DNA of 43,535 bases from Desulfuromonas sp. (lineage in GTDB: Bacteria > Desulfobacterota > Desulfuromonadia > Desulfuromonadales > BM501). The position numbers and the translations under genes are program-made. Shown here piece after piece: positions 17,471 through 17,698 of the stretch (positions are counted from its first letter, which is position 1; every line of letters starts with the position of its first letter). The notes beneath the pieces are model-generated. The model saw only the letters and a program-made list of their open reading frames with translations. It searched no databases and had not been told where the DNA came from. The DNA is taken from contig NZ_PKUB01000013.1 in the NCBI RefSeq assembly GCF_002868845.1, positions 1-43,535 on the forward strand, given 5' to 3'.

Positions 17471-17487
17471 TTGGCACAGCCTGTGCT
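17471..17487 (+). promoter_or_regulatory. Sigma-54 (-24/-12) promoter of glnK-amtB
   Basis: TTGGCACAGCCTGTGCT: GG at 17473-17474 and GC at 17485-17486 with exactly ten bases between, and TGGCAC matching the -24 consensus fully. The start would be near 17498, giving a leader of about 200 nt before glnK. Confidence 0.8.
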
Positions 17488-17514
17488 ACTATAGAAAACG
17501 AAGATTGCAGGGAG

Positions 17515-17615
17515 CGGCCCGCTGGCAGAAAGGAGAAGATCTCTTCTGGCGACGGGCCGGGTAAAAAGAAAACAGAATAGCGGCCCGGGGAACAAAGGTG
17601 TTCCAGATAGGGCCG
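17515..17615 (+). promoter_or_regulatory. Structured glnK leader with A1/G4 hexaloop, possible ANTAR antiterminator target
   Basis: Two domains are closed by matching GC stems: CGGCCCG (17515-17521) with CGGGCCG (17553-17559), and CGGCCC (17581-17586) with GGGCCG (17610-17615). The second domain contains GGAAC / GTTCC around the hexaloop AAAGGT (17594-17599), with A at loop position 1 and G at position 4, the pattern required by ANTAR RNA-binding proteins. The segment 17553-17559 can pair equally with 17581-17587, so two exclusive folds exist. The first domain holds a hairpin CAGAA / TTCTG rather than a second clear hexaloop. An intrinsic terminator follows at 17629. Confidence 0.5.
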
Positions 17616-17628
17616 ACGGTTGGCAACG

Positions 17629-17668
17629 GCGCCCACCCTTCCGATACACGGAAGGTGGGCGCTTTTTT
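17629..17668 (+). terminator. Intrinsic terminator inside the glnK leader (attenuator)
   Basis: GCGCCCACC-C-TTCCG pairs with CGGAAGGTGGGCGC (one bulged base), 14 bp, followed by six T. It stands 31 bases before the glnK ATG and after the sigma-54 promoter, so transcripts from that promoter must pass it to reach glnK. It could also end the upstream kinase transcript. Confidence 0.85.
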
Positions 17669-17698
17669 ATTTATACCCTCTGGAAAGGAGAACGTGGC

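Follow-up and report, generated by a model that had tools for sequence, protein, structure and literature searches.

The response regulator GnfR is reportedly an ANTAR antiterminator. In Geobacter sulfurreducens the genes gnfK (GSU0941) and gnfR (GSU2822) encode a nitrogen-fixation kinase and response regulator, respectively, according to the portion of PMC7962754 available to us. The 'dual hexaloop' of ANTAR-target RNAs was defined in PMC3369931, the accessible sections of which place matches ahead of P-II genes and of ammonium-transporter genes, and describe for Pelobacter carbinolicus a nitrogenase regulon of three units.

We have analysed a window of 43,535 nucleotides from Desulfuromonas sp. 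(the whole stretch of DNA under study), in which the leader of glnK-amtB is very probably an ANTAR-target transcription attenuator, with an ANTAR-controlled terminator. As ANTAR leaders ahead of P-II genes have already been published (PMC3369931, in the sections accessible to us), we regard this locus as a further, well-supported case. A putative 'double gate' (sigma-54 start plus ANTAR-dependent elongation) over ammonium-uptake and nitrogenase genes now becomes directly testable, in a large and ecologically important group of bacteria; the analysis also yields a covariance model, together with gene linkage for a kinase-regulator pair, and raises the structural question of how an ANTAR dimer could bridge hairpins that lie far apart.

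Anatomy of the glnK-amtB leader

The leader lies between a histidine kinase gene and glnK (Table 1). The hallmark of a sigma-54 promoter is the GG and GC of its -24/-12 element at a set spacing, and the element upstream of glnK carries both, correctly spaced, as a preliminary description of this DNA had proposed. TGC-N10-GGCA-like sites, a pattern picked after inspecting the leaders, occur in eight of the 17 leaders with a script-recognised promoter (out of 30 given), against 0.41 expected from mononucleotide shuffles; five of the eight have the site at -69/-70. Beyond amtB, an open reading frame at 19498-20298 encodes a protein with a signal-peptide-like stretch, and possibly belongs to the same operon.

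Table 1. Coordinates of the leader elements and neighbouring genes within the window
Feature	Position	Strand	Basis or remark
GAF-PAS-HisKA-HATPase histidine kinase	15728-17371	+	Pfam
Candidate activator-binding dyad TGC-N10-GGCA, 17 bp	17403-17419	+	69 bp upstream of -24 element
Sigma-54 promoter, -24/-12, TGGCACAGCCTGTGCT	17472-17487	+	sequence pattern
GC-rich upstream hairpin	17515-17559	+	fold prediction; lineage-variable, dispensable
5' arm CGGCCC of helix enclosing P1	17581-17586	+	permutation tests, fold
P1 hairpin GGAAC[AAAGGT]GTTCC, 5 bp, A1/G4 hexaloop	17589-17604	+	
3' arm GGGCCG of helix enclosing P1	17610-17615	+	permutation tests, fold
P2 hairpin, core GGC[AACGGC]GCC, A1/G4 hexaloop, putative antiterminator	core 17622-17633, extended 17618-17637	+	
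Intrinsic terminator (stem 17628-17663, U tract)	17628-17668	+	fold and constrained fold
glnK (P-II protein), putative regulated gene	17699-18037	+	ATG at 17699; profile match
amtB (ammonium transporter), putative regulated gene	18082-19467	+	profile match

Two hexaloop hairpins, P1 and P2, precede the terminator. Both loops (AAAGGT and AACGGC) have A1 and G4, and both stems have at least 3 bp, P1 with five pairs and P2 with three plus three more past a mismatch. P1 and the terminator had been picked out in the preliminary description; P2, which had escaped it, provides the second hexaloop that it had hoped to find among related leaders, and overlaps the terminator. The terminator stem comprises 15 pairs, including one G-U, and has a single bulged base (-27.8 kcal/mol when the tail is included); it is followed by T6, which lies 30 bases before the glnK start codon. 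The bulge and the length of the stem probably explain why a simple terminator scan did not list it.

The 3' arm of P2 is also the 5' arm of the terminator (17628-17637 being common to both), and the two folds are therefore mutually exclusive. Folding the window leader with P2 imposed carries a penalty of 9.1 or 12.2 kcal/mol, according to which stretch is folded, and for the 24 dual-hairpin leaders described below the penalty ranges over 2.4-16.5 kcal/mol; minimum-energy folds contain P2 in none of these 24 and P1 in 22. The unaided leader RNA is predicted to terminate. In its minimum-energy fold the window's P1 loop closes further through an A1-U6 pair, a U at loop position 6 being found in two of 24 P1 loops.

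A different reading starts from the GC-rich segments at 17515, 17553, 17581 and 17610, for which the preliminary description had proposed two exclusive pairings. The window sequence does contain this complementarity, and its leader folds with unusual stability (more so than 200 of 200 shuffles; z -5.85), both of which would suit a conserved two-state RNA switch that alternates 17515:17553 plus 17581:17610 with 17553:17581 and senses a small molecule or temperature. When each leader's upstream region was paired with its own or with others' arms, however, no signal emerged (14164 and 5409 of 20000 permutations were at least as good; 19 leaders, this test also requiring 15 nt of upstream sequence), and we reject the alternative-stem switch: the 17581/17610 helix is conserved, as shown below, and the competitor pairing is not. 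The upstream hairpin is likewise rejected as a conserved element and is accessory only, the equivalent region having a mean z of -1.4, falling below -1.5 in 12 of the 24, and being nearly unstructured in three (L017, L022 and L041). Nor does any Rfam family match the leader, or the loci of seven relatives, at gathering threshold, and in a permissive scan of the leader all matches fell below gathering scores (best E 0.091); a riboswitch or other known RNA family is accordingly rejected, and we consider a two-state switch of this kind highly improbable. The only gathering-threshold match in the window is a 6S RNA (RF00013, 76.5 bits) at 15381-15563 on the minus strand.

Conservation of the hairpin pair and of a helix around P1

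Taken alone, the dual hexaloop is only slightly uncommon, since 41 of 2000 dinucleotide shuffles of the window leader (about 2%) hold an A1/G4 pair with stems of 5 bp and 3 bp, and 202 of 2000 hold one with two 3-bp stems. Such figures lend something to the view that the hexaloops are incidental, and the leader either a protein-independent attenuator or a plain terminator that trims transcripts started by sigma-54. The strong evidence, however, comes from comparison, and leads us to regard this view as very unlikely. From 88 P-II matches in 38 genomes of the order (the window's own included) we took 50 leaders (30 loci and 20 stretches), of which 33 are glnK-type, defined as at least 73% identical and comprising all such matches among the 88. 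An adjacent, complete hairpin pair is found in 24 of the 50: 23 of the 33 glnK-type leaders, leaving ten without, and one of the 17 others (L041, 69% identical). In six of them (L006, L008, L014, L015, L016 and L018) the pair was picked by eye, the automatic choice having differed or found none, and the P2 loop of L015 has G at position 1; L032 and L033, with a pair some 280-330 bases upstream, were counted as lacking one. The glnK leader of G002 (L020), a genome with no ANTAR match, looks degraded, with P2 kept and P1 and the terminator decayed.

All 24 dual-hairpin leaders have a sigma-54 promoter pattern upstream. In their alignment, 93.1% of P1 and P2 cells are paired and the covariation score is 0.375 (0.163 when shuffled), neither value being reached by any of 500 shuffles; by a weaker measure, pairs changed on both sides, five of nine qualify, which 28 of 500 shuffles equalled. 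The constancy of A1 and G4 is partly by construction, as both served as search criteria. This covariation in P1 and in P2 speaks against incidental hexaloops, as does the finding (by eye) that the 3' arm of P2 is the 5' arm of the terminator throughout the 24. In each of these, again by eye, the terminator with its T-rich tract overlaps P2 directly, and this bears on a further possibility, namely that the dual hairpin binds ANTAR protein but chiefly alters mRNA processing or stability; few actinobacterial ANTAR RNAs lie upstream of a terminator, according to the accessible part of PMC8164766, but with the terminator so placed here we give this reading very little credence.

A third helix encloses P1. 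Across 20 leaders (the same-genus copies L018, L026, L031 and L034 being dropped here and in the alternative-stem test), the 5' flank pairs with its own linker at -8.56 kcal/mol and with the linkers of others at -6.58 kcal/mol, a difference matched by four of 20000 permutations. We repeated this at the level of genera, parsing 64 of 84 glnK matches with C-G closing pairs and A1/G4 required: 16 genera unused before gave -7.07 against -5.25 kcal/mol (again four of 20000), and the full set of 35 genera gave none of 20000. The helix is not uniform, in that 12 of the 16 new genera beat the mismatched median and some reach only -3 to -5 kcal/mol.

This helix bears on the nominal P1-P2 linker, which is 17 nt in the window leader. 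That length is within the 2-25 nt accepted for ANTAR RNAs in the available part of PMC8164766 and beyond the 5-12 nt given for eut in that of PMC3369931; it is also longer than the 14-nt linker with which EutV induction was impaired in vivo (PMC3369931, same portion), unless the enclosing helix shortens the span. Long linkers are not tolerated by EutV leaders: a 20-nt linker extension abolished antitermination in vitro with a EutV leader, as stated in the sections of PMC8934654 available to us. In 33 of the 35 genera (those with a helix of at least -4 kcal/mol), the mean P1-P2 distance falls from 16.8 nt nominal to 4.6 nt once the helix is formed. As the remaining distance even so increases with nominal linker length (r 0.60), the helix does not fix the spacing at one value.

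A covariance model, R1, built from the 24 dual-hairpin leaders, has matches (counted at E up to 0.01) in 84 of 136 genomes of the order, 24 of the 84 being training genomes; outside the training set the figure is 60 of 112, and class-wide, with the order included, 186 of 277. The hexaloop is conserved in relatives, which the preliminary description had set as a check. We inspected 94 of the 96 matches in the order, the other two (in G027 and G037) being the glnK leaders L028 and L029 seen earlier. Labelled by the first of nine query proteins within 0.9-1.5 kb (GlnB excluded), 84 have a glnK-like gene downstream, two have draT and eight have no query protein. The R1 matches upstream of draT come from two relatives (L176 and L189), and L176 has a full A1/G4 hairpin pair. 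Among 20 matches outside the order, eight are followed by a P-II gene within about 1.2 kb (directly after the leader in two), six stand directly before nifH, one precedes a weakly amtB-like gene and five an open reading frame without identity. In L309, L311, L312, L314 and L315, also outside the order, the element precedes a gene for a protein with a signal-peptide-like start and no assigned identity; L313 and L316 have a P-II gene about 1 kb downstream of it. The glnK leader is the only significant R1 match in the window's genome, and six others there (E 0.56 and up) were inspected and not taken as real.

The ANTAR regulator, its candidate kinase and the nif leaders

The genome of the window has one ANTAR match (PF03861, E 3.2e-17), a REC-ANTAR response regulator of 187 amino acids encoded on the contig where nifHDK and nifB also lie, and followed by draT and draG; draT or draG lies within the fetched stretch in 14 of 20 ANTAR neighbourhoods. 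The preliminary description had placed ANTAR antitermination on top of sigma-54 initiation, and had looked to the genome for such a regulator; this proposal is supported as regards the conserved hexaloops and the ANTAR gene, and is not supported in its alternative-stem component. Of 11 RNA-contacting residues of EutV, taken from the accessible part of PMC8934654 and placed with a manually derived numbering offset of two, the aligned protein keeps seven (Arg142, Lys143, Lys149, Glu160, Tyr164, Met172 and Arg175) and differs at four (K147R, R168Q, N173D and R177S).

An ANTAR protein is found in 34 of the 38 genomes, the exceptions being G002, G016, G017 and G022 (the last two with no P-II match of at least 73%), and in 106 of the 136 genomes of the order. 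Among these 136, 79 have both element and ANTAR protein, five the element only, 27 the protein only and 25 neither (Fisher p 1.3e-8); leaving out the training genomes gives 56, four, 27 and 25 (p 6.6e-7), with neither p value corrected for descent. That 79 of the 84 element-positive genomes have an ANTAR protein again tells against incidental hexaloops. The five that give no ANTAR match are G016, G090, G102, G109 and G111, and G016 (rated 100% complete, in 420 contigs) is a point in favour of a protein-independent attenuator, as it has the element and no ANTAR gene was detected in it. In its leader, L041, which precedes a P-II gene, the dual hexaloop and the terminator both look intact, and the genome gives no nifH match either. 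Twelve of the 27 genomes with the protein only belong to one family, f4. In three of its members (G003, G023 and G035; leaders L021, L024 and L025) the glnK leaders have no element and the nifH leaders keep the dual hexaloop, a pattern that perhaps represents lineage-specific rewiring.

ANTAR and glnK genes lie close together in 13 of the 38 genomes. An ortholog of the kinase upstream of glnK is present in all 11 of the ANTAR-glnK loci inspected (from 11 of those 13 genomes), and abuts the ANTAR gene in four. We suggest from this linkage that it is likely the cognate kinase of the ANTAR regulator, and GnfK-like by position.

The same RNA architecture recurs elsewhere in the genome. Upstream of nifB stand a sigma-54 promoter, a P1 hairpin GCGATAC[AAGGCC]GTATCGC, a P2 hairpin GGC[AAAGAA]GCC and a terminator; the gene matches TIGR01290 at E 1.2e-91, below that model's cut-off. 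This unit emerged when 60 kb of the nif contig, the window and 3.5 kb of contig C8 were scanned for hairpins with a terminator; the other listings of that scan (C2 minus strand, C8, and window 4545) were taken as chance. Pattern searches of the whole genome gave 17 matches for the P2 core, GGCAANGGCGCC, only the one at glnK being accompanied by P1 and a T run, and five for a two-loop pattern, two of them the glnK and nifB leaders, against one for a reversed-pattern control.

The scan missed nifH, which appears once G is allowed at loop position 1. In the window's genome nifH is preceded by a sigma-54 promoter and two terminator units in tandem (leader L086, 19680-19880), and both hexaloops of the first unit have G at position 1. 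With A or G allowed there and G4 required, 18 of 27 nifH leaders from 35 genomes searched show a hairpin pair (17 by script and L304 by eye, with no shuffle control), and in nine of the 18 the P1 loop begins with G. This fits the EutV-RNA structure, in which A1 makes no specific contact and G4 does, as stated in the available sections of PMC8934654. Recurrence of the motif pair before nifH, nifB and draT is a further argument against incidental hexaloops.

Proposed mechanism and relation to described ANTAR systems

Drawing these findings together, we propose a model in which RNA polymerase, started by sigma-54, would transcribe P1, held at the end of the short enclosing helix, and then P2. With no active ANTAR protein, the P2 3' arm would pair into the stronger terminator and transcription would stop before glnK, giving a default 'OFF' state. 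Under nitrogen limitation, we suggest, the GAF-PAS kinase whose gene precedes glnK would phosphorylate the ANTAR regulator encoded beside draT-draG, which may then bind the hexaloops successively and hold P2, such that the terminator could not form and polymerase would read through. On this model glnK-amtB is probably gated at initiation and again at elongation, and nifB and nifH would be gated twice in the same manner.

We also put forward, tentatively, the possibility that the third covarying helix, by enclosing P1, folds up most of a linker over which an ANTAR dimer could not otherwise move from P1 to P2, and so acts as a 'spacing clamp', which would define an undescribed architectural subclass of ANTAR RNA; included in this proposal is that loop position 1 may be G on the P1 side (as in nifH), with only G4 being read. 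We found no description of the enclosing helix in the accessible parts of the ANTAR literature searched, which is less than a full literature check.

Set beside the EutV, NasR and AmiR leaders, as described in the available sections of PMC3369931 and PMC8934654, the glnK-amtB leader differs in its longer nominal linker, mostly taken up by the covarying helix round P1, and in the sigma-54 promoters that accompany all 24 aligned leaders; the nifH leaders differ further in the G at position 1 of P1 in nine of 18. The likeness to GnfK/GnfR of Geobacter sulfurreducens (PMC7962754, same portion) is one of position and domains, in a histidine kinase, here encoded upstream of glnK, and a response regulator, here an ANTAR protein encoded on the nif contig. 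With the eut, nasF and ami leaders the glnK-amtB leader has in common two A1/G4 hexaloop hairpins, the second overlapping a terminator, and with the ANTAR-target systems of PMC3369931, in the portion available to us, an ANTAR response regulator in the genome and nitrogen genes downstream of the element.
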